From Candidatus Gastranaerophilales bacterium (GTDB lineage Bacteria; Cyanobacteriota; Vampirovibrionia; Gastranaerophilales; Gastranaerophilaceae), in contig CALVAR010000001.1 in the NCBI GenBank assembly GCA_944325575.1, forward strand, positions 62,001-126,000: a stretch of 64,000 bases of DNA, written 5' to 3'. Position 1 is the first letter of the stretch. Every line of letters begins with the position of its first letter. Positions 3,766 through 36,035 of this stretch are shown here, one piece after another. Both the position numbers and the translations under genes were made by a program. A model generated the notes under the pieces. It saw only the letters and a list, made by a program, of their open reading frames with translations, ran no database searches and had not been told where the DNA came from.

Positions 3766-4479
3766 TTAATATTGGTAACCTTGCTGCGGTGTAAATGTAA
3801 CCTGCTGATCAAGTACAATGTTTATTACGCTGCCGGCAGGAATTGTTGCAGGTATTCCTTTGTCCCATATAGATTTTGCAAGACCTGCTCCTGCGCCGAC
3901 AGCTGTTCCGTATGCTGCCCCTTTACCTACTTCTCCGCCTGATAAAGGTCCGAATATTACACCTGCGACAGCACCTGCTGCGGTTCCAATAGCTATGTCT
4001 TTGGCATATTCTGTTGCGGATTCTGCTTTTGTTCCGCCTTTTATTAATCCTGTACCGTCATCAGTTTGAATTTTTCCTGAAATAGGAATCATTTGTCCGT
4101 ATGGAGTGACAATGTTTGTGAATTTTACCATTAATTGACCGTTAATGCCTGCACGTCCTGATTTTTTAACTTGTATTACAGTTCCGTTTACTGAGCTGCC
4201 TATAGGTGCAATTAGTGTATTGTTATAATAAAAGTTATTTGATAAAGCTATACACACACTTTGTCCTAATGACAAACTTTCAGAGGATAATTCCATTGTC
4301 GCCGTTGCTGGAAAGCTCGTTCCGGACGGCACATATACAACCTTGCCCTGCAATGGAGTAAATTGCTGTGTTTCTGCCTGTGCAGAATATGAATATAAAT
4401 CAAAGGAACCTGCTCCTATTGTGATTAATGATGCTAAAAGAAGTGTTGAAACAACCTTTTTTGCTTTCATTTTAATCAT
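3766..4479 (-). CDS. Secreted glycine-zipper protein
   Basis: This 237-residue protein has a clear signal peptide (KMKAKKVVSTLLLASLITIG, with cleavage probably near AQAE). The mature part has a beta-rich region (about 40-140) resembling the outer-ring fold of VirB10/TrbI-like proteins (LIAPIGSSVNGTVIQVKKSG, TPYGQMIPISGKI). A glycine zipper follows (about 165-200, AAGAVAGVIFGPLSGG and GTAVGAGAGLAK), then a C-terminal strand region. Glycine zippers insert in or associate with membranes. The gene lies between bamA and tonB on the same strand, which suggests an envelope role. The start is supported by GGAGG 8 nt before the ATG. No specific function is assigned. Confidence 0.75.
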   Translation of the reverse strand: MIKMKAKKVVSTLLLASLITIGAGSFDLYSYSAQAETQQFTPLQGKVVYVPSGTSFPATATMELSSESLSLGQSVCIALSNNFYYNNTLIAPIGSSVNGTVIQVKKSGRAGINGQLMVKFTNIVTPYGQMIPISGKIQTDDGTGLIKGGTKAESATEYAKDIAIGTAAGAVAGVIFGPLSGGEVGKGAAYGTAVGAGAGLAKSIWDKGIPATIPAGSVINIVLDQQVTFTPQQGYQY

Positions 4480-4575
4480 TGCCTATCCTCCGTATCTAAT
4501 TTTAATTGTTATTGTTTTTAACGATTATTTAATTATATTGTTCATTTTTAATCTGTCAAAGTAGACGATTGTATA

Positions 4576-12800: not shown

Positions 12801-15800
12801 AAATGTTAATAATATATTTATAGACAGCAATGTAAAATTTAATGGCGATGGTGCCGGTTCTGTTATAGGATCATCTGTTGCTGCAGATTTGAATTTTTCA
12901 AATATTGAAATCCATGCACAAATAGAAGCAGAGAAAGTCCTTGGCGGTATAGTCGGGTCCTTTAGTACAGGTATAATTGAATTTGATAATATTCTGTTTG
13001 ATGGTGATTTGTATTCTTCTAACACTTCAGTACAAGCCGGTGCTCTTTTTGGAAAAGTTTTAGATGAAGACATGCAAAACAGATTGCATAATATTTATTT
13101 GTCGCCAACTACTCATGATATGTCGAATCCTCTTGTCTCTATGGATTCTAGCGTAATAAAGGCGAGTGTCTTTGGAAATTCAGTTGAATATCATAATTTT
13201 GAAGTTATAAATTTCTATTTTGATTCAGATTCCATTGAATATGATGATTTAATAAATGCAAATCATCTTAGCGGTATAAACGGACAATCTTTTGAACAAA
13301 TCACTTCAAACAGACAGTTCTATGCTTCGCCTTATACGCAGATATCTGCAGGCACGGTAAAAGTCAACGGTACTACGATTACTCTTACGGCAGGTACTAT
13401 AGATGAAGCTATCGCACAGATAAATGCAAAATCCTCACAAACAGGAGTAACTGCTGCTATAAAAGACGGCAGAGTAGTCTTTATGAGCGATTCTGCTTTC
13501 ACTGTTGCCGAGGGCACAAGCGACTTTGTCCAAAAGACAGGTACTGCAGGCTATACGATAAACAGCGTAACCTCAAGCACAAGAGGCGACGTTGTTACAG
13601 GTACTCAGGATCTTAACAAAATTTCTGCCGAAGAAGCTGAAGACCTCGGCTATACTGTGGTAACAACAAAATCCGAACTTATTTCCGCATTGCAGGCGAA
13701 CGAAAATATCATGCTGATGAATGATATTGATATGTCAGGATCATCTAATAATTTTAATTATTCCGGCATATTAAACGGCAACGGCTATACTATCAAAAAT
13801 CTTACAAGCACTTTGTTGGGTACTGCTTATAACGGCACTATTATTAAGAACCTGAAAATCGACGGCGCAAATGTCGGCGGTAGCGCTATTGATTCAATAC
13901 TTGTTACAGAGGCTTACGGCTCTGTTACATTTGAAAATATAGAAGTTACAAATTCTGAAATAAACGGAGGCGGTGCTCCTTATCAAAGCGGCGTCCTTGT
14001 CGGACTTGCAACCAACGGTTCATCATTAACCTTCAGGAATATAAAAATAGCTGATTCCGTCTCTATATCCGGTGCAAGTAATATCGGCGGTCTTGCCGGT
14101 ACATTGGACAATGCAGACGCTCTTGTCCAGAATGTGCAGGTAAGTGCTCATATTGACGGGGACAATTATCTGGGCGGTATTTTCGGCTCTGTATCCGGTA
14201 ATGTTACTTTTGATAATGTAGTGTCAAACGGCTCTATTTTCTCCGATGCACAAATAAGCAATCAATTTGCAGGCGGCTTTGTAGGCTATACCTCCAATGC
14301 AAACACAAAATTAACATTTATGGATTCTTATGCAGATGTAGATATGCAGATGGATGAAGTTTGGGTCGAAAATTCAGGCACCAATATGACTCTCTGGGCA
14401 AGTAACCCGTTATATATAAATCAGTTTGTCGGCTATCTCTATCAGGGATCTACATCATTTAAAAATTCATATTATCTTAGCAGCAATGCATTTACTGCTA
14501 AGGGTGAACTTGGTACAGCCACTGCAACTGAAAAAACTATTGATTCTTTTGACGAAAACTGGTCTTCACGCAAGGTTTCGCTCACAGAAGACGAGGCTGT
14601 TGCTCTCGGATATACTGTTATACACAACGCAAACGAATTCCGATCAAAAATCGCATCCGACCTTGACGGCAAGTTTATGCTTGTGGGCGATATTGATCTG
14701 AGCACAGTTTCGTATAGTACTTTATACAATTTTAAAGGCACTCTTGACGGCAACGGTTATACAATAAAGAATTTTACAAGTTCAACTGCATATGGCCTGT
14801 TTTCTGCTACACAAGACGGTGCAACCTTCAAAAATCTTACACTTGATAATATTAATTTGTCTGTATCTTCGTCATCAGACACAGGGCTTTTAATCGGTAT
14901 GGCTACGGGCGATTTTACTATAGATAATATCGTAGTAAAAAATTCTTCTGTTAATGCACACTCAGCCGGCGGCTTGATAGGAGGAATAAGTTACACTGCT
15001 TCAATTCCCGTAATAGGCACAATAAATAATATTTATATTGATAAATCAGTAGAAATTAACGGAGGAGCAGCAGCCGGCGGTGTTGTTTCTTCAGCTGCGT
15101 ATACAGGCAGAAATGCTGCAGGATCTCATTTGTATATAAGCAATGTTTCTTCTTACGCAAAAGTAAGCACCACCTCCGCGGGCGGCGACGGAAGATATGG
15201 TGCCGGCGGTATAGTAGGTTCTACTTCCATGAACCTGGATATTGTAAATGTCCGTGTTGGAGGTTCTGTTTCCGGTGCAAAATATGCAGGCGGAATTTTA
15301 GGCAGTTTTTATAAAGGCACTAATACAAATACCGCTGAAATTAATATAAGTCAGGCATTTTTTACAGGTTCTCTTTCAACTGCATCCGGTACATCAGGAG
15401 GCGGTATCGTCGGTATGCAGTCAGGTGATATTACAAACTCTTCTTATGTGGAAGTTAATGTTAGTAGTTCCTATTATTCCAACAGTTCATATACTGACAG
15501 GTTTGGAGCAACATATGCTTCAAATACCGCAACGCTGGCAAAAGACAGAGAATTCTTTTCTTCTCAGTATTTGACATACTGGACGAAAAATCCCAATACA
15601 GACCCGGGTGATTGGGGTTTGGGTCCAAGCATCCTTGCTAATGCTAATGGTATAAGTATAAACGGTACAAATATATCTCTGGCAAACGGTGATAATATAA
15701 ACACTGTTATCAGCAAAATTAATGAACAGTCCTCTACAACCGGAGTTACTGCAGAGCTTGTTGACGGATATATACAGTTTTATTCCGACGAGAAGTTCTC

Positions 15801-18800
15801 TTTGAAATCCCCGAGCAATGCGACATCACCAGCGGGTTCTTTCGTGACAAGTGATTTTATGAAGCAACTCGGTGTAACGGGCGATATGTATGGGGTCAAT
15901 GTTCTTACAAGTTCCGTAAGCGGATTGAATCGCGATACTGTTCTTGACGGGCTTAGCGCAGGTACTTTAAATCTGCAGTCACAGCACGGTGAGAAAGCTG
16001 ATGTCACAATTGGCGCATCTGACACATTAGGCGATATTATAGATAAAATAAACAAAACTGATTACTTTAGAGCGGGTCTGGACTCTGAAGGTAGATTCTA
16101 TATAGAAGATTTGAAACCTTATGATAATAACAATGCTATGGTTATAGGCAGTGGTCCCATTAAATATGTATTTAATGTTGATAATTCGGATACAAATTTT
16201 GAAAACCTTCTAGGTTTAGGCTCTTATTCCACAACTTATGAAGATAAGTCACAATCATCAATATTTACGACCTTAAAGGGTTCATCTTCCGTTACCGGCA
16301 ACGAAACTCTGGATGCCGGTACGTTTACTCTGATGCTCGGCGACAAGAGCCAGAACTTTACCGTTAATCAGGGTGAAACAATAAACTCCGTGCTTGATAA
16401 AATCAATGCTTCTTCCATCGGGATAAGCGCTTATATAGAAAACAACAAGATTGTACTTATTACGGATGAACAGACACCTGACAATATTGCCCTTAAAGAA
16501 GTATCGGGTAACTTTGGCACGGTCAGCGGTTTGACTACTATTACAAACTATGGCGGAGAGTCTGTTGTTGGTCATGAAGGTTCTTATACTACGCTTAAAG
16601 GTTCTAATACCGTAGCTGCTGGCATTTCAAAAGCAGAAGCCGAAGCAAAAGGCTATATTGCTGTTTCTACTGCTCAAGAACTCAGAAATGCAATGCTCAA
16701 CAGCAGTACGTCAAAGACAATTGTTCTTATGAATGACATTGATATGTCAGGATTCGGTACTTCTATATCAAGCTTTGCCGGTACTATAGACGGTAACGGA
16801 TATACTCTCAAAAATTATACAAATACAGACGGGCTTATTAAAACAACCAAAGGTTCTGTCACTATTAAGAACCTCAATATAGACAACTTCAATATTTCCG
16901 GTTCGTCGTCAAGCGATTATCACTCATTGCTGATTGATAATACTTCTTATACCGTGACTGTCGATTCCGTAAATATTACAAATTCTCAGGTAAACGGACT
17001 CCAGCATAGCGGGGCGCTTATAGGCTATTCTTCACGTACGGTAAGTATAAATAACGTAAGCATTGACGAAAATACACTGATTAAAGCAAGCTCTCACTAT
17101 GGAGGAGCACTCATAGGCTCTATGAGCGGTCTTATCCTTTCTATCAATAATGTATATTCAGCTGCTGAGATTGACTGCTGGGATGAAGCAGGAGGACTTG
17201 TCGGTTATGCAACTTCAACTCTAAAAAGCTTGACTGTAAAAGATGTATTTATTGAAGGAACAATCAATGTTTCCAGCACGTCCGGATACTCCGGTGGTCT
17301 TGTCGGCAGATTCGCATCCAATTCTGTAAGTGATGATATATCAAATGTCATTATAAACAGTGATTTTCTTGTAGCGCATGAAGATGCAGATTCTGCAACA
17401 GGAAGTTTTCACGCAAATATTCTAAGCAATGCCTCTTTGTCCGGTGAATATATTTTCTACAACTCGGATAAAACTCCGTCTGTTGTAAATACCGACGGCG
17501 CTCAAGCTATTTCAACCGTAGGTAGTAAGACAGGTTATGATAAAAATACATTTGTATCTAATAAATTTACGCAGGTCTCTGCAGGCACTATACAAATTAA
17601 CGGGCAGAATATTATTCTGTCGGGCGGTAATATAGGCACTGCAATCAATGAAATCAATGAATACTCTTCTAAAACCGGAGTGACTGCTTCTGTCGAAGAC
17701 GGAAAAGTTGTATTTAAAAACACTCAATACGGCTCAAACGGAATCAGCATCACTGCAGGTACAAGCGACTTTGTTGAAGTAACGGGAACTGCCGGCTATG
17801 CAATATCTGCTCCTACGACTACTGTAGAAGGCGGCCGGGTGACAGGCACTGCCGGTATTGATACTTCCACTCGTTATACTGCTGAAGAAGCTCAGGCTAT
17901 GGGATATACGGTTGTAAAAACAGGCCAGCAGCTATTAGACGCTCTTGTTGCAAATAAAGACAAGATAATGCTCATGAACAATATTACAATGAGCTCTGCT
18001 GCTGTTATAGAAAATTTTGACGGTATTTTAGACGGCAACGGCTATACAATAAGCGGTATGAATAATATGCTCATAAATTCCACCGAGGATGGTGCAGTTA
18101 TCAAAAACCTCAAAATCGTCGGTGCTAATGTTTCAAATAATGCTATGTATACAGGTTTCCTTGTCGGACAGGCTAAAGGTTCAATAACTTTTGAAAACAT
18201 AGAGATAACAAATTCTGCTCTGACAGGTACGACAATGGTCGGTGCACTGGTAGGACGGGTAGCTTCAAAATCTGTATTTTTAGCTGACAATATCTATATC
18301 GGCGATGATGTTACTATTACTGGCGGTCAACAGGTAGGCGGTCTGGCAGGAATTGTACTCTCAAATACAAAATCTGTAGTGACAAATGTTACTGCAGCAG
18401 CGCAAATTCAAGCATCTTCATATCTGGGACTCGGCGGCATAATAGGGTATGCATATTCTGATGCAACTTTTGAAAATGTAAAATCAGAGGGTTCAATTAA
18501 CACAACATATACAGGTAGTGGCACTCTGTATATGGGCGGTTTTATCGGATATCTGTCTTCCACAAAACAAAATAATATTATTTTTAAAGACACATATGCC
18601 AAAGTAAAAATGACAAAAGGTTTGGCATCTCCATCCAATTCCGCCACTGTTAACCAGTATGTAGGTTATAATAATAACCTATCTAATACTATATATAATG
18701 TAGATAATGCAAAATTCTATAGAGGCGGTGCATATGGCGGTACTGATTCTATGGAAATCGGTACTGCTACGACATCAAGCACTGTACCTTCTGATATAGG

Positions 18801-21800
18801 TTTTGATGACAACTGGACTGTAAAATCCGTAATTCTGTCTGAAACAAAGGCTGCTGCACAGGGTTATACTGTTATTCACAATGCTCAGGAGTTCGTAGAC
18901 AAGATAAAAGCCGACCTGGACGGCAAGTTTATTTTGATGGGAAATATTGATTTCAGAAATGTTTCTTATACTTCTATTTCCGGCTTTAGCGGCACATTAA
19001 ACGGCAACGGATATACCATAAAAAATCTATCTGCGGAAAACGGACTGTTTGCTACTACGGAAGACGGTGCTGATATCAAAAACCTGACTCTGGACGGCTT
19101 TACTATAGCAGGTGCTACTACGGCAGGTGCTCTGATAGGTACTGCCAACGGCTCTGCAAATATTGAAAATATTCTCTTAAAAAATACTTATTTTGATGTC
19201 AGTTACATGGGCGGGCTTGTTGGCACTTTTAGTGCAGAAAACAGCGTTTTAAACATAAATAATGTATATGTAGACTCATCTGTTACAGCAGAGGATACTT
19301 TGCAAGCAGGCGGTATACTCGGAACTTCTGCATATGATTCCTCTACTGTAATTATCAGAAATGCAGAATCTTATGCTACACTGAGCACATTATTTGTTGT
19401 GGGCGCAGGCGGTATTGCATGTGCAATCAGCTCAGATGCTGTTATAACCAATGTCCGCACAGGAGGCAGTCTGAGCGGTTTTGGCAGCGGGGGAATTGTG
19501 GCTGCAGTAGATACATCAGTAGACGCAAACGGCGACGTATTTATATCCAAAGCCTATACCTCTGCCCAAATAACTGGTTCAACTAACGATGGAAGCCCTG
19601 CTGAAGCTATTGTCGGTCATAACGACACATCTGATGGCGGAACTCTTACCGTTAAGGACTCTTATTATAGTAACAATTCATATTCTAATGATAACGGCGG
19701 TACATACTCCGCTTCTGCAAGCAGTCAAAAATTCTATCAGGCAGCTTACACTCAGGTTTCGTCCGGCACAATTAGCATAAACGGTGTGTCTGTCAGACTC
19801 GAAGAAGGCTCTATAGCTTCGGCTATAGGTACTATAAATGAGTATTCTGATCAAACAGGGGTAAAAGCTTATATAAATTCATCTAACAGAATTGTCTTTG
19901 ATGCTATAGAAGGCTCAGGCCAGGGTGTAACTATTACAAAAGGAACCAGTGATTTTTATTCCAAAGCTGTAAATTCTTTTAACTCATCCTTATCTCACTC
20001 TATTACAAAGACAACCGGATCTGTAAAGCTGACAGAAGATATAAAATTGGATGGACTGTCAGATGGCAGCATCACTATAGACGGTAAAACAATTAAATAC
20101 ACTTCTAATATGACTGTAGGTCAGGTTATTGATCTTATAAATGAAGCTGCAACAAGCCTTAATGGCACGCCTATAGCAGGACATTATTTTGCAGCGGCTT
20201 TTACTGCAGGTTTGGATGAACAGGGCAGGTTCTTTATCAAGACAGACGGCGATATTTCATTTACTGGCAATTTAGCTAAATTTATAGGTTTTGAATCCGG
20301 TGTTGTCTCATCTGGACCGGAGCTTGTTCTTGGATATGATGAAAAGTTCTCTACTCTTACCGGAACAAAAAATGTTAATGTTAACTCTGATGTATCAAGC
20401 GGTGATTTCTATATCAACTATAACGGTAAATCACAAAAATTTACAGTAGGTGATAATGAAACCATTCAATCTGTTATGGACAAAATCACTAATTCCTCTT
20501 TGGGTGTTACCGCTACTATTCAAAACGGAAAAATCGTTATTACGGCAAATGAAGCTAATTCCGAAAGAATCTATATAACTGACGGTACAAGCAACTTCTC
20601 CGAACTTGCGGGATTTACGTCAGAAGGCGCGCAATCCGGTACTACCGTGCAGGGTGCTGATTCTGTTTACATGTCTTCTAATACTGCGCTTAGTGCTCAG
20701 GGTACCTACTCTGACGGCGATTTCTATGTCCATCTGACGGATACTGACGGAAATATAACTGATACTGCAAGAATTGAGATTGCCGCATCTGATTCTATAC
20801 AGGATATTATTAACAAAATCAATGATTCAGGTCTCGGTGTTACTGCTTATATCGATGAAACAACCGGCAGACTGGCAATAAAACGTGATTCTTCAACCCA
20901 GGCAGGCGGTGTGCTCGTAACAAAAGGTACAAGCGATTTTACTAACAAAATAGGATTTACCTCCGGCGGTGAACAGAATGTTGTAACCAATGCCGGTTCT
21001 CAGGCAGAACTTGTCTCTCAAAACACTGCTACAAATGCGAAATTCTCTGACGGTAACTTTATAATTCAGATTACTGACAAAGACGGCAATGTTACTTCAG
21101 AACACGTTTTTGAAGTTTCTTCAGGTGATAGCGCGCAAAAAATTGCGCAGATGATTACCGATGCAGGTATCGGGCTTACTGCATATATTGATAATACTAC
21201 TGACAAAATGGTCATAAAACGTAATACCGATTCCGGCGAGGGCGGATTTATCATACAAAAAGGTACTTCTGATTTTACTACCGTTATGAACTTTACATCC
21301 GGCGGTTATGAAATCGGCGTTAAAGAAGATGGTGAAACTGCTTCTATTACTTCATTGTACAATGTATCATCAGCAGGTAACTTTACAGCAGGTACATTCT
21401 ATATTGACGGTACCGAAATCACCATTACGGAAGCTGATTTAAAATCCGCAAACAAGATACAGACAATTCTTGACAGAATCACAGAATTGACAGATGTAGT
21501 GGCAACTCTTGATAATCAAAACAGAATTGTACTCACCAAAAAGTCTTCTGCTGGTGAAGGCGAAATTGAAATAGTTAAGGGCACGTCTGATTTTACTTCT
21601 AAATTTGGATTTACATCAGGCGGATACCAGAATGCAATTGTTACTGACGGTACAACAGCAACTATTACCTCAGGTGTTACTTCTTATAATACCAAAGTGT
21701 CAGCAGGAGATTTCTATCTGCAGCTTACAGGTGATAATGCAACTGATCCTATAAAAATTACTGTTGATGAAGGTGATACTGTTGGTACTATCATTGACAA

Positions 21801-24576
21801 GATTAATGCTATGGATATTGGTGTTGCTGCTTCCTGGGACAGCTCTGCTAACAAAATCGTTATTACTAGAGATGCAGAAACAGGCGAAGGCGGTATCAAT
21901 GTTATAAAAGGCACATCTGATTTTACAAACCTTGTCGGATTTACATCGGGCGGTCAGCAGGATCCCGCTACAGTTAACGGTAATACTGCTTCTATAACTT
22001 CAAATAATCAGGTTGGTCCTGACACTGCCATTACAAAAGGTGATTTTATTATCAGATTTAACGGCACTGATCATGTAATTGAGCTTACTAAAGATACAAC
22101 TATAGATGAAGTTATAGATAAAATTAATCAAATCGACGGTTTGACTGCTGCTTATGATGATACTACCAAAAAGATTACTATCACCCGTGACGGTGACAGC
22201 GGCGAAGGCAATTTTGAAATAATTAAGGGTACAAGCAACTTTACGACAGTTGCAGGATTTACATCCGGCGGCACACAGTCTTCTTCCGCTATTAGAGGCA
22301 GCAAAGCTTCTATTACTTCTACAAACTCTATCAATGATTCACAGAAGTTTACTCAAGGTGACTTTACTATTAATCTTACAGGCGAGAATGCAGCTTCTAT
22401 AAAGATTAATGTTGATACAAATGATACTATTATTTCTATCGTTGATAAAATCAATGCACTCAATGCCGGTGTTACGGCAAGATATGACAACACTACAGGG
22501 CTTATTACAATTTCCCGTGATGCTGAAACAGGCGACGGTTCTATAGAAATTGTCAAAGGTTCGTCTAATTTCACTAATGTTGTCGGCTTTACACAGGGCG
22601 GCTCATCAAGTGCATCCTTCAACGATGGCGAATATGCAGAAATTACTGCACAAAAATCTGCTGCCGCAAATCAACATTTTGGCGCAGGTGACTTTACAAT
22701 CAGGCTTACAGGTGACAATGCATCGAGCATAACTATAGATGTTACTGCCGACGACACTATGCAGTCTATTATCAATAAGATTAATGCTGCTGATGCAGGT
22801 GTAACTGCTTATCTTAATGATGACAACAAGCTTGTTATAAAACGTGATGCTGATACAGGAGTCGGCGGTATAGAAATTGTAAAAGGCTCAAGCTCCTTTA
22901 CGACGGATATAGGTTTGACTACCGGCGGCGATGAATACTCCGGAATTCATGATGCCGGCGAATCCGCTAAAATAGTCAGCACTCAGGATGTATCTACAGC
23001 ACAGGGATCTTATACATCAGGCAATTTCTTTATACAAATGCTTGATAAAGACGGCAATCCCGAGGCAGGCGGATTGATTCAGATTGACATAAATAAATCC
23101 GGTAATACAGTAGATGATATTAATACAATTATAAACAATATCAATGCTAAGAATGCCGGTATAACGGCTTCTATAGAAAACGGCAAGCTCGTGTTGACAC
23201 GGGATGAATCACTGGATGCAGGTTCATTTGTAGTTCTTAAAGGTACTTCTGACTTTACAAACGTAATTGGTTTGACTGCAGGCGGTTCCCTGCAAGATGG
23301 TGTATATGAAGCTGGTAATGCGGCTACTCATACTGTTTTAACAAGTCAGGATCTTGGTAAAAAACTGGTCAGTGATTCTATGACACTTGGATCAATAGGT
23401 GTTAAGACAGGCACATTTAGGATTAACGGTGTTGATATCAATGTTAAGTCAAGTGATACAATTTACGATCTTGTTTCAAGAATTAATTCTGTATTCTCTG
23501 ATCCTAAGTATGAAGGTATAGCAGTTACTGCTTCTTATGAAAATGGTGAGATGGTTCTGCGTTCAAAAGAAGCATCCTCTACAGCTAGAGTTACTGTGGA
23601 ACGAGGTACTTCTAATTTTACTGACATTGCTAATTTTACAAATTCATATCAAAATTCATCAGACCTTGGTATTTTAGAAGAAGGTCACAACGCCCACTTT
23701 ACTATTAACGGTAAAGAATATGATATGGCTCTTGATCTTAAAGATATAACTGATGACAATGTTTACAACGGCAATAATCTTATCTATCTTGATGCTGATG
23801 GAAATGTTGTTACAAGTGCTGATGATGCTTCTATCACAATTGAAGTAAAACAAACTGGCAGCACAACTATAGACATCGGCAGAAACCTCTTAAATGACAG
23901 TGTTGAAAAACTGCAAAGCTTTGTAAACAGATTTAATACTGCAATGGATGCAGCCGCTAATCCGATAATGTCTGATGACACTGAGTTTGCTGCATTTATA
24001 AATCAAATCAAGTCTGCATTAACAAGCAATATTGGCTCTATGAACAAAATTACCCAAAAATTGGCTGAAATCGGTATTATAGTAAAAGTTACCGGCGGAA
24101 CTAATTCAAATATGGGCACCGTCGAGATGTCTCTGTCAAAAACTAACGGCAAATATGACTATGTTGAAGCTTTCTATGATGATCCGCAAAAAGTAATGGA
24201 TTTGATTATCGGTGATGACTCCAATCCGCTTGATTACAGTGTAGCAGGTGCATTTACAAGATTGTCTGATACTATACATTATGCTCTTGAAAATAACAGA
24301 GGCGGATATTTCAAAGTTACTCCGCGCTCTTTAGAAGCACAGCAAAAGGCTCTTAAACGTGAAATTACTAAAACAACTTTTGATTTGAATGAATTGAAAA
24401 ATACTGCAGCCGGTGACAACGGTATGCAAGGACTCAGTGAATACTTGCTGCAGCTTGAACAACAATATCAACTCATAAATGAGGCAATTATTGCTCTTAA
24501 TAAACAATACAGTTCATCTATAACAAGACTTGTTTTAAACAAAAACAATAGCGCGTTTAATCCGATTGTTTCATAA
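6808..24576 (+). CDS. Giant FliD-like repeat protein, 5,922 residues
   Basis: Both ends look like the flagellar filament cap FliD. The first 130 residues form a coiled-coil D0-like start (ISSMISQLIAKKTSSMNSLL) followed by ELSVSQLA. The last 300 hold a FliD C-terminal domain (about 5,680-5,922), including LQSFVNRFNTAMDAA and EYLLQLEQQYQLINEAI. The interior is repetitive. About 25 flagellin-IN-like units of 90-120 residues carry motifs such as DTIQSVINKINSSG and KGTSDFTNxxGFTSGG. Seven beta-helix/GLUG-like modules have conserved GYTV glycines at residues 1330, 1866, 2281, 2601, 3282, 3699 and 4019, each followed by a DGNGYTI turn. FliD proteins are usually 400-700 residues. There is no signal peptide and very little cysteine, as expected for flagellar export. 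It could be a cap-derived adhesin or filament decoration. The ribosome binding site is weak. Confidence 0.85.
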   Translation: MDFSIGNLNGTNANISSMISQLIAKKTSSMNSLLDQRASIENALATLQNSSLGIGSINNSYSSQIASLQDSIDAMKEQYTINANKLNTINSLNNSYNKTVSTLDDYIQSLKNPNPNDSLVSGSSSNGNVAGVDVDNSANPQRIELSVSQLATCSVLKSGIISGTSITGNTKITDLFAGNYDSASNTISSLRTDISESMKLSELGVKSGSFKLGSRVITVKSDETVGDLINKINADSNYTAKIDRATGAFTISAKSGSSVAITNAVGDLNVSGNLSTTTKLEDLGIKSGAYFVGGVQIDVADGDTVGVLIDKLEAEGFNASIQTDTNNPSSKVLSITDSNGNKVSTEGTNFASAAGFTVSEGTFSINGETFTIGSDTTIDDLLYQINKATDDGVGAIFKDGQIVLTASKTGAVEINVEKGSSNFTNAVGFTTGGVMNTGNLVMGSDGSYVTLKGLNSGIKGSDIAKADGSGKFTSGNFLISYSKIDDLGNATNEMLTTEIVVEDGDTINDIIQKIKNQTTQKYTDSEGVERTNYLQAEIVDGHFQIRQTAKGADFDIAVQAGSSTFTSYVGLTKDVGTGVSTSGSATTYTGVNAVTDSTTFTEGSFKITASLANNPNKTETVTIEVGANETLQSVMDKINNSGLAIRAQLVTASDGTQRLQLAHNNYGSGYQISVEAGDTNFTNVVGFTTSVSTGVSNDGSSSTLTGIVTGLDKNTTGYKDGSFVISTNKLSSDGKTASSEMASAIIEVDSSMSLQDIMDKINSATYKDASGNDVDLGLRASLTSDGRIQISQIHGGEGFDIKVEAGDTNFTQEVGLTKDVTVGVSTGSTSSYIMGTKTYNGTFTEGSFKITTNKVGADGSASSEMISVDVNIEAGKTLAQQLDSINAQLNSIGLSASVIADGADAGKIKIEQLNSGAGFDIKIEAGSTDFTEKLGLTTQVSTGVSNDGTFAYVLGKNDLSNTAGYTAGDFTVTTNKTDAEGNPLDEMQSVTVKLQAGLSAQEAVNSINSQLASIGLSATIEDGKIKISQTNAGAGFDIKIEGGSTNFTEKAGLTKDVSVGTSTDGTATKIVGNKNVTSSQKGFSEGSFTITSGKTGEGATVTIDISANDTIQSVINKINSSGIDVSAYIDDNGKFVIQQNNAGPDYFITVEAGNTDFTQVVGITANVTTGVSNEAQNATLTGTIGNLNPGMTFTEGEFVITTNDVTHGTQEGYFADPNKFLSTTISVAKGDTLQDVIDKINQQGASIGISASLTSDGKIQLSQLNGGSGFTISVTAGSTNFTEKVGLTAAVSAGESTNGSYTNITGTNNVSGTDTAGVGHIDRDTAIAMGYTVVSMADELVNALKSGADKIMLTGNIDMSGVDYTPDSSNAFSGVFDGNGYYISNLKVNSTVGGGLFGGLDGAVVRNIGFVNADIKAAGAVGVLAAVASNSTISNVYVKDSSVASTAGSVSALVAFTSGDVSINNVVVENTTIFGNNSDQGGLVARVVDGNLSISNSAVDDILFTYTPSGNRPVGGFIGIVFQGNVSVSNSIANFVSSNTSQAGSIAGVVLEPGIVSFNVSNVVSMSNLNPVVNDYSGNSYTGAVEEVGYNDFASVTTDLSGIEIVKDDSSSSGYRISNTILENTLGESDGSDSKFTTGNFKITAGTSGNEITAEITVEDGDTIDDIINKINSAGLGVTASITADGKFTITSNSADPDFRIKVESGSSDFLAYVGMASAVQNTGILTSGSDANQYTTLTGSANLTNGNEAITSGSFKINGVTIEVSGTIENALNQINNYTSQTGVVAELVQNDSGSYNVVLRAAKTGSGTSIYVEGGTSDFGVVAGLTTQSVGGGAALGTEGVKQTITGSKDVVHQLTEAEATAQGYTVIHNASEFASKINANKSGKFMLMGDIDLSSVSYTAISGFSGTLDGNGYTIEGLSGSSGLFETTSAGATIKNLNIENFVLNNTGNTQTGILIDNAIGALTVENINVSNASVTGTTVGLIGSSLNTSMHTPLNVNNIFIDSNVKFNGDGAGSVIGSSVAADLNFSNIEIHAQIEAEKVLGGIVGSFSTGIIEFDNILFDGDLYSSNTSVQAGALFGKVLDEDMQNRLHNIYLSPTTHDMSNPLVSMDSSVIKASVFGNSVEYHNFEVINFYFDSDSIEYDDLINANHLSGINGQSFEQITSNRQFYASPYTQISAGTVKVNGTTITLTAGTIDEAIAQINAKSSQTGVTAAIKDGRVVFMSDSAFTVAEGTSDFVQKTGTAGYTINSVTSSTRGDVVTGTQDLNKISAEEAEDLGYTVVTTKSELISALQANENIMLMNDIDMSGSSNNFNYSGILNGNGYTIKNLTSTLLGTAYNGTIIKNLKIDGANVGGSAIDSILVTEAYGSVTFENIEVTNSEINGGGAPYQSGVLVGLATNGSSLTFRNIKIADSVSISGASNIGGLAGTLDNADALVQNVQVSAHIDGDNYLGGIFGSVSGNVTFDNVVSNGSIFSDAQISNQFAGGFVGYTSNANTKLTFMDSYADVDMQMDEVWVENSGTNMTLWASNPLYINQFVGYLYQGSTSFKNSYYLSSNAFTAKGELGTATATEKTIDSFDENWSSRKVSLTEDEAVALGYTVIHNANEFRSKIASDLDGKFMLVGDIDLSTVSYSTLYNFKGTLDGNGYTIKNFTSSTAYGLFSATQDGATFKNLTLDNINLSVSSSSDTGLLIGMATGDFTIDNIVVKNSSVNAHSAGGLIGGISYTASIPVIGTINNIYIDKSVEINGGAAAGGVVSSAAYTGRNAAGSHLYISNVSSYAKVSTTSAGGDGRYGAGGIVGSTSMNLDIVNVRVGGSVSGAKYAGGILGSFYKGTNTNTAEINISQAFFTGSLSTASGTSGGGIVGMQSGDITNSSYVEVNVSSSYYSNSSYTDRFGATYASNTATLAKDREFFSSQYLTYWTKNPNTDPGDWGLGPSILANANGISINGTNISLANGDNINTVISKINEQSSTTGVTAELVDGYIQFYSDEKFSLKSPSNATSPAGSFVTSDFMKQLGVTGDMYGVNVLTSSVSGLNRDTVLDGLSAGTLNLQSQHGEKADVTIGASDTLGDIIDKINKTDYFRAGLDSEGRFYIEDLKPYDNNNAMVIGSGPIKYVFNVDNSDTNFENLLGLGSYSTTYEDKSQSSIFTTLKGSSSVTGNETLDAGTFTLMLGDKSQNFTVNQGETINSVLDKINASSIGISAYIENNKIVLITDEQTPDNIALKEVSGNFGTVSGLTTITNYGGESVVGHEGSYTTLKGSNTVAAGISKAEAEAKGYIAVSTAQELRNAMLNSSTSKTIVLMNDIDMSGFGTSISSFAGTIDGNGYTLKNYTNTDGLIKTTKGSVTIKNLNIDNFNISGSSSSDYHSLLIDNTSYTVTVDSVNITNSQVNGLQHSGALIGYSSRTVSINNVSIDENTLIKASSHYGGALIGSMSGLILSINNVYSAAEIDCWDEAGGLVGYATSTLKSLTVKDVFIEGTINVSSTSGYSGGLVGRFASNSVSDDISNVIINSDFLVAHEDADSATGSFHANILSNASLSGEYIFYNSDKTPSVVNTDGAQAISTVGSKTGYDKNTFVSNKFTQVSAGTIQINGQNIILSGGNIGTAINEINEYSSKTGVTASVEDGKVVFKNTQYGSNGISITAGTSDFVEVTGTAGYAISAPTTTVEGGRVTGTAGIDTSTRYTAEEAQAMGYTVVKTGQQLLDALVANKDKIMLMNNITMSSAAVIENFDGILDGNGYTISGMNNMLINSTEDGAVIKNLKIVGANVSNNAMYTGFLVGQAKGSITFENIEITNSALTGTTMVGALVGRVASKSVFLADNIYIGDDVTITGGQQVGGLAGIVLSNTKSVVTNVTAAAQIQASSYLGLGGIIGYAYSDATFENVKSEGSINTTYTGSGTLYMGGFIGYLSSTKQNNIIFKDTYAKVKMTKGLASPSNSATVNQYVGYNNNLSNTIYNVDNAKFYRGGAYGGTDSMEIGTATTSSTVPSDIGFDDNWTVKSVILSETKAAAQGYTVIHNAQEFVDKIKADLDGKFILMGNIDFRNVSYTSISGFSGTLNGNGYTIKNLSAENGLFATTEDGADIKNLTLDGFTIAGATTAGALIGTANGSANIENILLKNTYFDVSYMGGLVGTFSAENSVLNINNVYVDSSVTAEDTLQAGGILGTSAYDSSTVIIRNAESYATLSTLFVVGAGGIACAISSDAVITNVRTGGSLSGFGSGGIVAAVDTSVDANGDVFISKAYTSAQITGSTNDGSPAEAIVGHNDTSDGGTLTVKDSYYSNNSYSNDNGGTYSASASSQKFYQAAYTQVSSGTISINGVSVRLEEGSIASAIGTINEYSDQTGVKAYINSSNRIVFDAIEGSGQGVTITKGTSDFYSKAVNSFNSSLSHSITKTTGSVKLTEDIKLDGLSDGSITIDGKTIKYTSNMTVGQVIDLINEAATSLNGTPIAGHYFAAAFTAGLDEQGRFFIKTDGDISFTGNLAKFIGFESGVVSSGPELVLGYDEKFSTLTGTKNVNVNSDVSSGDFYINYNGKSQKFTVGDNETIQSVMDKITNSSLGVTATIQNGKIVITANEANSERIYITDGTSNFSELAGFTSEGAQSGTTVQGADSVYMSSNTALSAQGTYSDGDFYVHLTDTDGNITDTARIEIAASDSIQDIINKINDSGLGVTAYIDETTGRLAIKRDSSTQAGGVLVTKGTSDFTNKIGFTSGGEQNVVTNAGSQAELVSQNTATNAKFSDGNFIIQITDKDGNVTSEHVFEVSSGDSAQKIAQMITDAGIGLTAYIDNTTDKMVIKRNTDSGEGGFIIQKGTSDFTTVMNFTSGGYEIGVKEDGETASITSLYNVSSAGNFTAGTFYIDGTEITITEADLKSANKIQTILDRITELTDVVATLDNQNRIVLTKKSSAGEGEIEIVKGTSDFTSKFGFTSGGYQNAIVTDGTTATITSGVTSYNTKVSAGDFYLQLTGDNATDPIKITVDEGDTVGTIIDKINAMDIGVAASWDSSANKIVITRDAETGEGGINVIKGTSDFTNLVGFTSGGQQDPATVNGNTASITSNNQVGPDTAITKGDFIIRFNGTDHVIELTKDTTIDEVIDKINQIDGLTAAYDDTTKKITITRDGDSGEGNFEIIKGTSNFTTVAGFTSGGTQSSSAIRGSKASITSTNSINDSQKFTQGDFTINLTGENAASIKINVDTNDTIISIVDKINALNAGVTARYDNTTGLITISRDAETGDGSIEIVKGSSNFTNVVGFTQGGSSSASFNDGEYAEITAQKSAAANQHFGAGDFTIRLTGDNASSITIDVTADDTMQSIINKINAADAGVTAYLNDDNKLVIKRDADTGVGGIEIVKGSSSFTTDIGLTTGGDEYSGIHDAGESAKIVSTQDVSTAQGSYTSGNFFIQMLDKDGNPEAGGLIQIDINKSGNTVDDINTIINNINAKNAGITASIENGKLVLTRDESLDAGSFVVLKGTSDFTNVIGLTAGGSLQDGVYEAGNAATHTVLTSQDLGKKLVSDSMTLGSIGVKTGTFRINGVDINVKSSDTIYDLVSRINSVFSDPKYEGIAVTASYENGEMVLRSKEASSTARVTVERGTSNFTDIANFTNSYQNSSDLGILEEGHNAHFTINGKEYDMALDLKDITDDNVYNGNNLIYLDADGNVVTSADDASITIEVKQTGSTTIDIGRNLLNDSVEKLQSFVNRFNTAMDAAANPIMSDDTEFAAFINQIKSALTSNIGSMNKITQKLAEIGIIVKVTGGTNSNMGTVEMSLSKTNGKYDYVEAFYDDPQKVMDLIIGDDSNPLDYSVAGAFTRLSDTIHYALENNRGGYFKVTPRSLEAQQKALKREITKTTFDLNELKNTAAGDNGMQGLSEYLLQLEQQYQLINEAIIALNKQYSSSITRLVLNKNNSAFNPIVS
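12376..16600 (+). repeat. Internal tandem duplication, copy A
   Basis: This part of the giant gene encodes three beta-helix modules with conserved GYTV glycines at residues 1866, 2281 and 2601, and the IN-like repeats that follow. Copy B repeats the same order with module spacings of 417 and 320 residues, against 415 and 320 here. Shared landmarks include the linker ending GTAGY before the second module and LDGLSxGxxxx with GRFxI after the third. Boundaries are approximate. Confidence 0.7.
16601..20620 (+). repeat. Internal tandem duplication, copy B
   Basis: This is the second copy of the block of about 1,400 residues, with module glycines at residues 3282, 3699 and 4019, offset from copy A by 1416, 1418 and 1418 residues. 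The second module of each copy shares IKNLKIxGANV and the third shares YTVIHNA with LDGKFxLxGxID. The copies have diverged clearly, so the duplication is not recent. Confidence 0.7.
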
Positions 24577-24687: not shown

Positions 24688-26436
24688 ATGTCAATATCAT
24701 TTTCAGGTGTAGGTTCAGGATTACCCATCGATGAGTGGGTTACAGCTTTAGTGAAGGTGGAGCAGGACAAAGTCGATGCTCTGGAAGATGAAAGAGATGC
24801 ACTTACAGACAAGCAAAATATATTAAACAGTTTGAGTTCGGAATATAGCTCAGTTCAAAGTGCTACTTTGACTTTTACAGATTCTTTACTTGGTGCTGGA
24901 TCTGATATATTTTCTAAAGTCTCTGTATCAGCTTCTGATACAAGTGTTGTCACAGCGACTGTTACGCAGTTTGCCACTCCTGCAACTATAGAACTTGAAA
25001 TTGAATCTTTGGCATCTTCTTCCATTAAAACTTCTGAATATAATGAGGCCTTGAAAGATTCTTCAAAAAAACTTTCTGATCTCGGTGTTACTACTGCGGG
25101 TAACTTCCAGATAAACGGTGCAACTATTAATGTTACTCCTGATATGACAATCGACTCTCTTGTATATCAGATTAACAGCTCAACCTCGGCAAATGTAAAA
25201 GCTTCTTTGAAAAACGGACGTTTAGTCCTTGAAAACAGAGAAGCAGGTACTAAACAGGTTGAAGTCACCGGTACTGATTTAGTAGACGGGACACATAATT
25301 TTGCAGAACTCTTGGGGCTCGATAAAACATCTTCCGCTCAAAATTCTAAGAAAAATGATTTATTAAATACAGGTTCTACAACTCTTGCTGAATTGGGAGT
25401 AGAACAAGACGGAAATATAAATATTAATGGCACAGCGATAAATATAACAACTGATATGACAGTTGACGAATTTATCAGTGCAGTTAATTCATCTGATGCA
25501 GGTGTAACAGCTTCTGTTCAAAACGGCATAATGGTTTTGGAAAATACTGACGGAAGCAACGATCCTATAGATATGAATGGTTCAAATGTCGCTGGCAGCA
25601 GAAATTTTGCTGAATTAATGGGATTTACTTCTTATAATGATAGCGGCACTAATGCAGTATTCTATCTTAATGGCGACAGAAAAGAATCTACTTCAAATTC
25701 TGTATCCAGCGATGTAACCGGGATTTTGGGTCTGTCTTTAGACCTTTTAACAACAACTGACGGTGATCCTATTACAATCGAAATAACCAGAGATTACGAT
25801 TCAGAAGAGCCTCTTACTGCTTTGCAAACTTTTGTTGAGGCTTTTAATAAAATTGTTACTAATACAAACTTATATACTGATTCCGATTCAACTGAAAAAA
25901 ACGGCGGTATATTATCCGGTGAAAATAACCTTGTTCGTATTAAAAATAGTTTAAGAACTCTTGTTACTTCTACTGTTGAAAATTCGGGACAATATAAATC
26001 ATTGGCTGACATTGGTATTACAACAGGTGCACCGGGTCTAGATGTGTCTGCCGATACTACACAACTTATTATTGATGAAGAAAAGTTTTTAGATGCTTAT
26101 GAAAAAGATCCTGCATCTGTTAAGGCTTTGTTAATCGGTGATAATTCATCGGGCACTACACAAGAAGGATTGATGCAAAAACTTCAAACACAGCTCGAGG
26201 CTGCTACTGATCGTACATCAGGATATTTTGCGGCTAGAGGTGATTCTCTTGCGTCACAAATTTCGAATATGAATGACAAAATTGATAAAAAGCAAGAATA
26301 TGTTTATTCATATCAGGAAAAATTAACAAATCAGTTTAATTATATGGACCAGATGATAGCACAGATGAACTCTCAGTTTACTGCAATGCAGCAGCAGCTT
26401 GCTTCAATCGGTGTAAATATGGGCAGTTCATCATAG
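24688..26436 (+). CDS. fliD: Flagellar filament capping protein FliD (hook-associated protein 2)
   Basis: This 582-residue protein has the normal FliD layout. The N-terminal domain starts with VGSGLPIDEWVTALVKVEQ, close to the family pattern SGLDxxxxVxxLVxxE. Two flagellin-IN-like repeats follow at about 130-215 and 230-315 (LSDLGVTTAGNFQINGATI and LAELGVEQDGNININGTAI). The C-terminal FliD domain has coiled-coil ends (LQTFVEAFNKIV; YVYSYQEKLTNQFNYMDQMI). FliD caps the growing filament and helps flagellin fold. A GAGGTG ribosome site precedes the ATG. It lies 111 bp downstream of the giant gene on the same strand, and the two are paralogous at their ends. Its stop codon abuts the stop of recR on the other strand. 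Confidence 0.92.
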   Translation: MSISFSGVGSGLPIDEWVTALVKVEQDKVDALEDERDALTDKQNILNSLSSEYSSVQSATLTFTDSLLGAGSDIFSKVSVSASDTSVVTATVTQFATPATIELEIESLASSSIKTSEYNEALKDSSKKLSDLGVTTAGNFQINGATINVTPDMTIDSLVYQINSSTSANVKASLKNGRLVLENREAGTKQVEVTGTDLVDGTHNFAELLGLDKTSSAQNSKKNDLLNTGSTTLAELGVEQDGNININGTAINITTDMTVDEFISAVNSSDAGVTASVQNGIMVLENTDGSNDPIDMNGSNVAGSRNFAELMGFTSYNDSGTNAVFYLNGDRKESTSNSVSSDVTGILGLSLDLLTTTDGDPITIEITRDYDSEEPLTALQTFVEAFNKIVTNTNLYTDSDSTEKNGGILSGENNLVRIKNSLRTLVTSTVENSGQYKSLADIGITTGAPGLDVSADTTQLIIDEEKFLDAYEKDPASVKALLIGDNSSGTTQEGLMQKLQTQLEAATDRTSGYFAARGDSLASQISNMNDKIDKKQEYVYSYQEKLTNQFNYMDQMIAQMNSQFTAMQQQLASIGVNMGSSS

Positions 26437-28853: not shown

Positions 28854-29103
28854 TATATCTTAATAATATGTTTTTCTTAATATGTATGTTTTAAATATCC
28901 GGTCTATTTAAAATATTTAATTTATATATATAATTTCTATAATCTTTTATCGGTAAAAAGCTGGAACACCTTGTATAGCAAGCATTTCCCTTTATTTTTG
29001 TGTGTAAAAAGTTATTTTATTCTATTTAGGCAATTTTTTATTTTAATTTGTTTTTATATATATGTAAGGTTAGAAAAATTGGTTATGGTAGGAGATTAGA
29101 ACA
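28854..29103 (+). other. Long leader region with an imperfect palindrome
   Basis: This 250-bp interval holds no gene. A TATAAT lies at 28938-28943. The more GC-rich block at 28962-28989 forms an imperfect palindrome with arms GGAA..TTG and CAA..TTCC around TATAG. It could be the 5' leader or operator of the following gene, or an old recombination site. The rest is AT-rich with nothing recognisable. Confidence 0.35.
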
Positions 29104-29649
29104 GTGTACGCAATTTTCACAATGCGAAAGCTACAATTGACCCAGAGAATCAACCAGCTTCAATATAGATTGATGGAGTTGTCTCAAAGGCTTCAAGATT
29201 TGTCTGTTTATGCAGGCAATGTAGCGGATGGGGTTATTTCACCCGGTGAGTTTATGAGCTCTCCGGCAAGTATTTTCGGAGTTAATATGAACTTCTTTAA
29301 CAACAGTGTTCCAAAAGCATTGTTTGAAGCTTCAAGATCTTCGCAAATATATAATGCCAACATTATGAATATGAACGCTGCATCCGGTGGTCAGTACGGT
29401 ATGGCTATTGACCCATCTAACCCATCTTCTATCTATGCTAACCAATTCTTCGTCTTCAATGCATTCTTTAAACAGGCCTTGGATGCTGCAGGTAAAGCAG
29501 AAGCAGCTAAGGTCAAGAGACTTGAAACTGATATTACAAATCAAAAACTTATGATAGAAACGCAACTCAAGGCAGCAGAAACCGAACTGCAGAAAGTTGA
29601 AGAACAGGAAAGCAAGAATATAGAAAGAACAGCTCCTAAATATGCATAA
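29104..29649 (+). CDS. Conserved unknown protein with C-terminal coiled coil
   Basis: I do not recognise this 181-residue protein. It has an N-terminal amphipathic helix (KLQLTQRINQLQYRLMELSQRL) and a central Asn/Ser/Met-rich stretch (SIFGVNMNFFNNSV; YNANIMNMNAASGG). The C-terminal helix of about 55 residues (KAEAAKVKRLETDI through LQKVEEQE) probably forms a coiled coil. There is no signal peptide. Helical ends around a low-complexity middle recall flagellar or type III-exported proteins, but that is only a resemblance. The GTG start at 29104 is chosen because AGGAG lies 9 nt upstream. A strong terminator follows. Confidence 0.7.
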   Translation: MYAIFTMRKLQLTQRINQLQYRLMELSQRLQDLSVYAGNVADGVISPGEFMSSPASIFGVNMNFFNNSVPKALFEASRSSQIYNANIMNMNAASGGQYGMAIDPSNPSSIYANQFFVFNAFFKQALDAAGKAEAAKVKRLETDITNQKLMIETQLKAAETELQKVEEQESKNIERTAPKYA

Positions 29650-30095: not shown

Positions 30096-30104
30096 TAGTT
30101 CAAT

Positions 30105-30132
30105 AAAAAAGACACCGTATGGTGTCTTTTTT
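30105..30132. terminator. Bidirectional terminator
   Basis: AAAAAAGACACC and GGTGTCTTTTTT flank a four-base loop (GTAT). The hairpin has T-runs on both strands, so it can end the zinc-ribbon gene on the plus strand and the two tiny genes on the minus strand. Confidence 0.85.
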
Positions 30133-30151
30133 ACCTCTTTATTTCTTTTGC

Positions 30152-30301
30152 TTAATAGCTGTAGCCTGCTATGATTGAAAATGTTGGTACATTTGCCAGA
30201 TTTGTTGATTTGTTAAGTGTATTTAATGACAGACAGAAAGTTGCCATTGTGAGTAACATGACTGTCATCAATGTATAATTTGCAAGTTTTACTTCGTTCA
30301 T
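30152..30301 (-). CDS. 49-residue single-helix membrane peptide
   Basis: This small gene encodes MNEVKLANYTLMTVM followed by a hydrophobic helix (about residues 10-28) and a polar tail ending IIAGYSY. It starts at 30301, preceded by GGGGCGG, and stops at 30152, just before the bidirectional terminator. It lies 51 bp downstream of the ETAG-repeat peptide gene on the same strand. It could be a membrane partner or immunity-like protein for that peptide, or simply a small membrane protein. Shortness and the lack of a known family limit confidence. Confidence 0.6.
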   Translation of the reverse strand: MNEVKLANYTLMTVMLLTMATFCLSLNTLNKSTNLANVPTFSIIAGYSY

Positions 30302-30352: not shown

Positions 30353-30517
30353 CTATGCCATTGCACAGAATGAACCGCCTGCATTATTTGCCAAAGAACC
30401 TGCTGTTTCTGCACCGCCAAATGCAAGTATGCCAGCTGTTTCTACAGGTTTTTGTGCCAGTGTACCTGCTGTTTCCGGTTTTGCTGCAAAAAAGTTTCCA
30501 ATTGCTGATACGTTCAT
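30353..30517 (-). CDS. 54-residue peptide with three ETAG repeats
   Basis: This small gene has a strong ribosome site (AAGGAGT, 6 nt before the ATG at 30517). The product begins MNVSAIGNFFAAKP and then repeats ETAGTLA, ETAGILA and ETAGSLA at residues 15, 26 and 37, an exact 11-residue period. It ends NNAGGSFCAMA with a single cysteine. There is no signal peptide or long hydrophobic helix. The family is unknown to me. The regular repeats and the Gly-Gly near a C-terminal SFC could suit a structural or processed peptide, but no modification enzyme is nearby. A plus-strand frame of 92 codons overlaps it and lacks a ribosome site. Confidence 0.7.
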   Translation of the reverse strand: MNVSAIGNFFAAKPETAGTLAQKPVETAGILAFGGAETAGSLANNAGGSFCAMA

Positions 30518-30560
30518 AGATTTACTCCTTCTTCTAAATGTTTACTTCTTCAATATTTTT

Positions 30561-30588
30561 TATATACCTCGTACATATATAAAAACAA
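30561..30588 (-). promoter_or_regulatory. Possible promoter of the two tiny genes
   Basis: On the minus strand TTGTTT (30588-30583), a 16-bp spacer and TATATA (30566-30561) lie about 45 bp upstream of the ETAG peptide start. The region is AT-rich, so chance matches are likely. Confidence 0.35.
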
Positions 30589-30706
30589 TTTTTTTTGTTG
30601 AAATTCAATTTTAGAGATTTTCATTACATTTCTTAACAATTGAAACGTAATTGTATAATTTTCCGTCATATTATAAAAATAAAAGTTAAGAAAACATTAA
30701 ATTTCC

Positions 30707-34636: not shown

Positions 34637-35923
34637 TTAATTACTTGATTTAAATTCATTTAGTTTGTCCATATATGATGATTGGTTTGAATTATTTATT
34701 TCTGTCTTTTTAATATTTTTTGCTTCATAATGTTCCTTGTTTTCCTGTCTGAACTGTTCTACTTCTTCCTGCGTTACCTTGCCGTCACCATTTTTGTCTA
34801 ATTTTATAAGGGCGTTAAATAATGCTTCCGGAGTAATAACGTATTCTTGATTTTGTTCATCGTATTCCGCACCAATGAGAAATAGCAATGTTGTGTCAAG
34901 TGCATCAAATTTATTAGACTCTTGCATGAATAACAAGTCCAGAATGCTATTATTATATCCTTCTAATTTTAATTTTATTAGTTCACTTTCTGAAATCTTG
35001 CCATCCATATCAGCATCCAGCTGACTTATTTCATTTTCCATTCTTGTTGTGTTTATTTTGTATTGACAATTTTGTATAAACTCAGGGCTGTTTAGCAGGT
35101 CTTTTAATTCATCTACAATGCTGCCGTCACCGTTTTTATCCAATTTGACTAAATCTTCCACATGTAATCCTGTTAATTCAGAAGTAGACGTTGCCTTAAA
35201 GTACGGGTTGCTATTGTCTTCCGGATAAAGTGCGTTAAAAATTGCATTATAAATTTCATTCACAACAATTGAGCGGTATTGTGATGAATTGTTGTCAGAT
35301 GAAACGGAATTAATAAACGAGTTGTAATCTATGTCTTCTGGTAAATCCATTCCAAGTGCATCAAAGACAGCTTTTAGGACTCCGCCTATTCCTGCAATTT
35401 CAGGATTACCAGATTGCGTCATTTCTGCAATATTACCAAGCAATTCTTGTTTAGTTATTATTTGGGCAACTCTTTCAGAGTAACTATCATCCGAGTCAGC
35501 AAATGGATTATCTTTTGTTATTATATTATTATCAAAAAGCCCGGTCTTGCGTGATGTATTATCTACTTCTTTACCCCATTCTAACAGTATTTGCAGCAGT
35601 TCTTCTTGTGTTTTTTCAGACTTGTCATCTTTAGGATTAGTCTGCGGATGTTTTACTGTTTTGTCTGTTCTTTGTCCGTTATTTACTATTAATACTTTAT
35701 CAATGTTTATTAAATTCTGTCCAGCAACCCAGTTAGCTTCATTTAATGTTAATTTTAAACCTTCGTTAGAATTATTTTGCCCCGGTGTATTATATTCACC
35801 TAAGATATTTTCATCCTCTTGTTCTTGTGGCCCTCTATTCTCAAGCTCTTTTTTAGGGACATTTATTTTAAAACCGTAAGAATTTAGCTTACCTGTACCA
35901 AATCCGCTGTCAAATGTAGTCAT
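34637..35923 (-). CDS. EF-hand calcium-binding protein
   Basis: This 428-residue acidic protein contains three canonical EF-hand loops: DKNGDGSIVDEL (about residue 264), DADMDGKISESE (about 305) and DKNGDGKVTQEE (about 375). Positions 1, 3, 5 and 12 of each loop keep calcium ligands except where Leu or Glu varies at the last position. The N-terminal 150 residues are Asn/Gly-rich and disordered. There is no signal peptide. AGGAG lies 8 nt before the ATG. The unknown proteins at 46594-50453 have similar Gln/Asn-rich N-terminal tails. Calcium binding is well supported; the role is unknown. Confidence 0.8.
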   Translation of the reverse strand: MTTFDSGFGTGKLNSYGFKINVPKKELENRGPQEQEDENILGEYNTPGQNNSNEGLKLTLNEANWVAGQNLINIDKVLIVNNGQRTDKTVKHPQTNPKDDKSEKTQEELLQILLEWGKEVDNTSRKTGLFDNNIITKDNPFADSDDSYSERVAQIITKQELLGNIAEMTQSGNPEIAGIGGVLKAVFDALGMDLPEDIDYNSFINSVSSDNNSSQYRSIVVNEIYNAIFNALYPEDNSNPYFKATSTSELTGLHVEDLVKLDKNGDGSIVDELKDLLNSPEFIQNCQYKINTTRMENEISQLDADMDGKISESELIKLKLEGYNNSILDLLFMQESNKFDALDTTLLFLIGAEYDEQNQEYVITPEALFNALIKLDKNGDGKVTQEEVEQFRQENKEHYEAKNIKKTEINNSNQSSYMDKLNEFKSSN

Positions 35924-36035
35924 TTCTTATTCTCCTATTTTGTGTTACACTTATATATTCGATAATTTTTAATTTTTCTTTAGGAGATATTGCTTTATTT
36001 TTACATTTATTTACATTTATTTATATTATCTCTTA

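Follow-up and report, generated by a model that had tools for sequence, protein, structure and literature searches.

What is the 54-residue, repeat-bearing peptide encoded at positions 30,353-30,517 of this DNA, and what could it be for? The window (the whole 64,000-nt stretch that we analyzed, from a Gastranaerophilales genome of 2.02 Mb that is 99% complete) had received a preliminary description, which placed ETAG motifs at residues 15, 26 and 37, a strong ribosome site before the gene and a terminator shared with the next tiny gene. These assignments hold. The reading frame, hereafter gene A (translation MNVSAIGNFFAAKPETAGTLAQKPVETAGILAFGGAETAGSLANNAGGSFCAMA), lies on the minus strand, the plus strand over the same positions being interrupted by stops. 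An AAGGAG-type ribosome site precedes it in all 20 genomes of the genus that carry it, and one terminator-like hairpin stands behind genes A and B (0.3 in shuffled sequences). The features are collected in Table 1.

Table 1. Parts of the gene A/B locus and of its upstream region, in window positions.
Feature	Positions	Strand	Basis
Gene A, 54-aa ETAG-repeat protein (positions include the stop codon)	30353..30517	-	ORF list
ETAG motif 1, ETAGTLA (residues 15-21)	30455..30475	-	gene A translation, genome pattern search
ETAG motif 2, ETAGILA (residues 26-32)	30422..30442	-	gene A translation, genome pattern search
ETAG motif 3, ETAGSLA (residues 37-43)	30389..30409	-	translation, pattern search, alignment
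C-terminal signature GSFCAMA (order-wide form [FL]-[SN]-x-[VMI]-A-COOH)	30356..30376	-	homologue comparison
Shine-Dalgarno AAGGAG of gene A	30525..30530	-	sequence, genus alignment
Core promoter element GTTTTTATATATGTACG, presumed -10 region	30570..30586	-	alignment of 20/20 genus genomes and most of the order-wide set
HLR1-like direct repeat ATTGTTAAGAAATGTAAT, 36-37 nt before the core	30623..30640	-	consensus scan
Gene B, 49 aa, a single hydrophobic (TM-like) segment; 51 nt 3' of gene A	30152..30301	-	ORF list, profiles
Terminator-like hairpin 3' of gene B, common to the convergent zinc-finger gene	30104..30133	.	hairpin scan

A two-gene cassette of Gastranaerophilales

The ETAG repeat is not a product of chance, because the 2.02-Mb genome contains the DNA pattern for ETAGxxxA three times, each time inside gene A, and because a double-motif DNA pattern found in 40 of the 383 genomes of the family has no match in the control. 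The search of related genomes for ETAG peptides that the preliminary description had proposed was productive: gene A is present in 20 of 23 genomes of the genus (18/18 of those of good quality), always in single copy, and at the protein level 12 of the 41 genera of the family gave matches. Relatives occur also in families f2, f3 and f7, at least four families of the order overall; these loci share ancestry, so that the counts overstate their independence. In named records, the relatives belong to 'Candidatus Gastranaerophilales' genomes. Several large genera (e.g., g6, g7 and g13) gave no convincing match to gene A or gene B, and the pair is therefore dispensable in the order.

Gene A is under purifying selection, with a pairwise dN/dS of 0.19 (vs 0.36 for gene B and 0.11 for the neighboring grpE). 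Its synonymous divergence is lower than that of grpE (pS 0.43 vs 0.71), which is consistent with the codon bias expected of a strongly expressed gene. The preliminary description knew of no described family, and we likewise found no profile match in Pfam, NCBIfam, PHROGs or PADLOC, no match of the gene A profile to PDB sequences and no mention of ETAGSLA in the literature that we searched. Phage and plasmid collections yielded no match, and we rejected a phage or plasmid origin on this ground. Gene A is a real gene that lies outside every described family we tested; the mechanism proposed below is one that we infer.

Within the genus, the two genes lie between a zinc-finger gene on one side and a divergent grpE-dnaJ operon on the other. 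From genus to genus the neighbors differ, so that the pair forms an independent transcription unit. Gene B proteins, which we traced across genera and families with profiles A1 and A2 (A1 added further genera), have 46-50 aa, a single hydrophobic segment and a conserved N-terminus (MxExKxxN); most lineages also share a tail of the form [IV]SAF[NDS][AG] that is altered in the clade of the window. In many genera, and in f2, f3 and f7, gene B lies about 20-120 nt downstream of gene A. It adjoins gene A in g1, g19, g33 and part of g21, and also in g26, g32, f2 and f7. Upstream of the A1 matches we found degenerate copies of gene A in g26 and g36, and g21 yielded further copies; one copy upstream of gene B was recovered in f3, and in g37 and g3 the ORF in this place has lost most or all ETAG motifs. 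Gene A is the first gene of a two-gene cassette characteristic of Gastranaerophilales. Beyond the order, class-level matches to gene B were weak (E >= 0.0016), and the two such loci that we inspected (in genomes G424 and G445) do not carry the cassette.

No gene B was found beside gene A in g25, g18, g4, g41, g24 or g30, and gene B is therefore not strictly required. This bears on whether the pair could form a unit of toxin-antitoxin type, in which B would act on the membrane as the toxin and the disordered A protein would be the antitoxin. The order of the operon, in which the gene for a small disordered protein comes first and that for a single-TM protein second, would suit such a unit. Its absence from the PADLOC, plasmid and phage matches would not, nor would the occurrence of gene A in several genera without B found beside it, and gene A is single-copy, slowly evolving and syntenic within the genus; we regard this explanation as very improbable.

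The motif array and the C-terminus of the gene A protein

Across 65 distinct proteins we counted 185 motifs with the conserved unit E-[TS]-A-G-[ST]-[LIV]-A. Whereas E, G and the last A were fixed by the search expression, the free positions are themselves strongly biased, with T at position 2 in 158/185 motifs and A at position 3 in 167/185. Among 25 aligned homologues, E37-G40 and A43 of motif 3 are invariant and S41 is nearly so. The proteins carry from one to eight copies and range in length from about 50 to 140 aa.

The preliminary description had read an exact 11-residue period as a sign of a right-handed coiled coil or an amphipathic surface helix. The period itself is a property of the window's genus, where 29 of 31 spacings are 11 residues; in other genera, the spacing varies from 8 to 41 and the period is lost. 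Each repeat contains Gly, the linkers between motifs are rich in Pro, Gly and Ser, and an AlphaFold model built with 25 homologues has a mean pLDDT of 53 and no secondary structure. The regular spacing in one genus is what a helical reading has in its favor, and set against the variable spacing, the composition and the predicted disorder it leaves that reading scarcely probable at all. As far as the model can tell, the gene A protein is a disordered array of linear motifs and not a coiled coil. The strict ETAG motif was not found in other genes of the 2.02-Mb genome, and the C-terminal signature pattern is likewise confined to gene A. We rejected the idea of ETAG as a genome-wide docking tag for this reason.

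The C-terminus is among the best conserved parts of gene A: most of the 65 proteins end in [FL]-[SN]-x-[VMI]-A, with A as the last residue in 56/65. Hydrophobic-Ala tails resemble ssrA-type degrons, and clpP lies about 1.5 kb away in the window, so one may ask whether the free C-terminus is a degradation tag and gene A a short-lived regulator, or an adaptor for Clp or a tail-specific protease. However, genera g25 and g4 have C or G at the end instead, and the clpP neighborhood is not conserved across genera. We consider this improbable.

The near-terminal Cys, for which a modification had been suggested in the preliminary description, is C or S even within the genus, and Cys is absent from 31 of the 65 related proteins. 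We think a modified C-terminal Cys unlikely on two grounds: Ser often takes its place, and no maturation enzyme was recognized in a neighborhood that is not conserved between genera, in a check that compared neighbors with each other and scanned some of them for named domains. The same two grounds led us to set aside a RiPP as improbable. More broadly, A and/or B could be precursors of signaling or antimicrobial peptides (RiPP, pheromone or two-peptide bacteriocin) whose tails are the mature peptides. Both proteins are tiny and conserved at their C-termini, and the build of gene B, with its charged N-terminus, hydrophobic stretch and conserved tail, is like that of Phr/SHP precursors; 1/24 B proteins matched PhrA_Strep (NCBIfam) weakly (E 0.0025, below the cut-off of the pheromone family), the window's own gene B giving no match. 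Yet no maturation, export or receptor gene was recognized beside the pair, whose neighbors differ between genera, the Cys of gene A is not conserved, and the tails are conserved order-wide where those of pheromones or bacteriocins are diversified. Peptide precursors therefore seem to us quite unlikely, if less so than a degradation tag.

The promoter and the genes that share its elements

In upstream alignments of the genus, conserved blocks lie far from the gene A coding region. Order-wide, the layout is a direct repeat WWTGTWAM-NN-WWTGTAAM followed by the core TTTTTATATA-NN-TGTAAG. We compared the repeat with the HLR1 consensus of RpaB (taken from PMC11633204), to the reverse complement of which the copy in the window has two mismatches. 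Sites with at most one mismatch are present in 19 of 45 upstream regions (shuffle mean 0.22, max 3) and sites with at most two in 36 of 45 (shuffle mean 2.3, max 7); at the latter threshold, 15/17 ETAG promoters have a site, vs 11/115 other genes that are preceded by long gaps. With ties between candidate sites broken towards 36, repeat and core are 37 or 38 nt apart in 39 of the 41 loci measured, 36 nt in one and 27 nt in one. An HLR1-type tandem repeat thus stands at a constant position upstream of the core, which is the arrangement sought in an RpaB regulon.

The composite promoter of repeat and core occurs 26 times in 523 kb, 25 times before ETAG genes and once before a coiled-coil gene at a locus that had been chosen for its core element; the reversed-sequence control has two occurrences. 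As many of the scanned loci were chosen for their ETAG genes, these counts measure specificity within those loci and not a genome-wide total. The core pattern has 13 matches in the host genome (control 5), and three loci (L165, L166 and L174) also have an HLR1-like repeat at the same distance from it. A sigma-70 scan found promoter-like sites no more frequent than in shuffles. Three loci in two other genomes (L176, L183 and L186, in G057 and G176) show a variant of the promoter, TGTAACAAAA then ACTTTTTATATACTTTATATATATGTAAG; G176 has it in two copies, each before an ORF of 57-58 aa.

Other genes carry one or both elements. The window's best match to the ETAG core element, at 29050, precedes a coiled-coil gene at 29104-29649 (+) and has a PWM score of 30.6, vs 21.9 at the ETAG gene itself. 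This core is conserved in the genus and has no HLR1-like repeat. The gene has two start candidates (GTG at 29104 and ATG at 29122); the model of the form at 29122-29649 is helical, with no convincing PDB match. An EF-hand gene at 34637-35923 (-) has an exact HLR1-like repeat upstream, at 36000, and matches the XopAW type III effector family below the cut-off. Elsewhere in the genome (L189, contig G000:C12), a composite-promoter coiled-coil protein (MGLAASQARLLLLTARK...NIERTFKVFS) adjoins an EF-hand protein (4131-4685 and 5157-5960). L166, at a contig end, has a promoter and start near-identical to those of L189, which suggests a second copy or an assembly break.

The genome also contains genes of flagellar type. 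A second flagellar or type III-like export cluster, with FliI/SctN-, FlhA/SctV-, FliH/SctL- and FliF/SctJ-like genes, lies at 6385-13636 of L188 (G000:C5:60000-79900), and a separate, better-scoring FlhA is encoded elsewhere. PF00771 (FlhA) has matches in 116/117 genomes of the family; by score, FlhA matches split into a near-universal class and a patchy one. In the window, our reading of the sequence finds at 6808-24576 (+) a single ORF of 5922 aa in which flagellar-hook-like segments recur many times; it adjoins a 582-aa FliD-like ORF at 24688-26436.

A serious rival to the reading that we prefer is that gene A is a substrate of type III (flagellar-type) export, independent of Sec and produced alongside other orphan proteins without signal peptides. 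Read from its sequence, gene A has no Sec-type signal and its N-terminus is polar (Ser/Asn/Ile); the genes that have the core or composite promoter in common with it are coiled-coil or orphan ORFs in which no signal peptide is obvious; and both the weakly XopAW-like EF-hand gene and the second FliI/FliH/FlhA/FliF-type cluster would fit. No chaperone was found, however, and a membrane partner gene is untypical of a substrate. Because FlhA is near-universal and the cassette patchy, their co-occurrence says nothing, and we rejected a flagellar link by phyletic profile. Serious as it is, we think this alternative unlikely, though clearly less so than peptide precursors.

A proposed role and comparison with known systems

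Our best reading, to which we give a probability of roughly 0.36, is that an RpaB-like regulator controls the cassette, which would encode a disordered, strongly expressed docking protein with multiple motifs and, paired with it, a small membrane protein. The gene A protein would be intrinsically disordered, probably made in large amounts, and would display one to eight ETAG motifs and a conserved free C-terminus. Gene B, which in most lineages presumably shares an mRNA with gene A, would give a single-pass membrane protein that acts as companion of the gene A protein. We hypothesize that a conserved partner at the cell envelope docks onto the ETAG motifs, which would together offer it a multivalent binding surface: docking is suggested by a motif that stays fixed as the linkers drift, and the envelope by the membrane partner, gene B. 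An RpaB-type activator of the OmpR family may switch the pair on through the HLR1-like repeat at its fixed distance from the core. This link is one that we infer from the resemblance of the sites, the copy in the window having its two mismatches.

Orthologues of rpaB and nblS have been reported in three orders of Melainabacteria, including Gastranaerophilales (PMC3787301, PMC4040986), despite the lack of photosynthesis in Melainabacteria, and their role there is open (PMC3787301, PMC4040986). A stronger form of the proposal is that the ETAG peptide and the membrane peptide form an unknown envelope or export module that is a principal target of RpaB/NblS in these non-photosynthetic cells, which we hold to be unlikely. 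Gastranaerophilales are common gut bacteria with almost no characterized genes of their own, and an order-wide gene pair under one rigid promoter offers a way into their biology. Should the promoter repeat prove to be an RpaB site, the role of RpaB/NblS without photosynthesis, a question asked in 2013 (PMC3787301), becomes testable; if RpaB/NblS do target the cassette, this would reveal the job of a light-stress regulator outside photosynthesis. The ETAG array is, besides, a clean and unexplored case of a small bacterial protein in which a short motif is repeated.

Compared to known systems, gene B resembles Phr/SHP pheromone precursors in its size (~47 aa), charged start, one hydrophobic stretch and conserved tail, but this tail is conserved across the order and not diversified, no receptor gene was found adjoining gene B, and gene B is paired with a repeat protein. 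The sub-cut-off resemblance to the XopAW calcium-binding type III effectors is that of the neighboring EF-hand gene, gene A itself being without similarity to them. Like disordered proteins with short linear motifs, the gene A protein repeats a brief conserved motif among low-complexity, disordered linkers whose length varies, although ETAG matches no known motif class. Compared to the RpaB/HLR1 regulon, the putative target is an undescribed small-protein operon and not a photosynthesis or light-stress gene, and the first half of the repeat in ETAG promoters is usually TGTTAA; what they share is a direct repeat TGTWAM-N4-TGTAAM, the reverse complement of HLR1, upstream of the gene A core promoter; the lineage is one from which homologues of RpaB and NblS have been reported (PMC3787301, PMC4040986).
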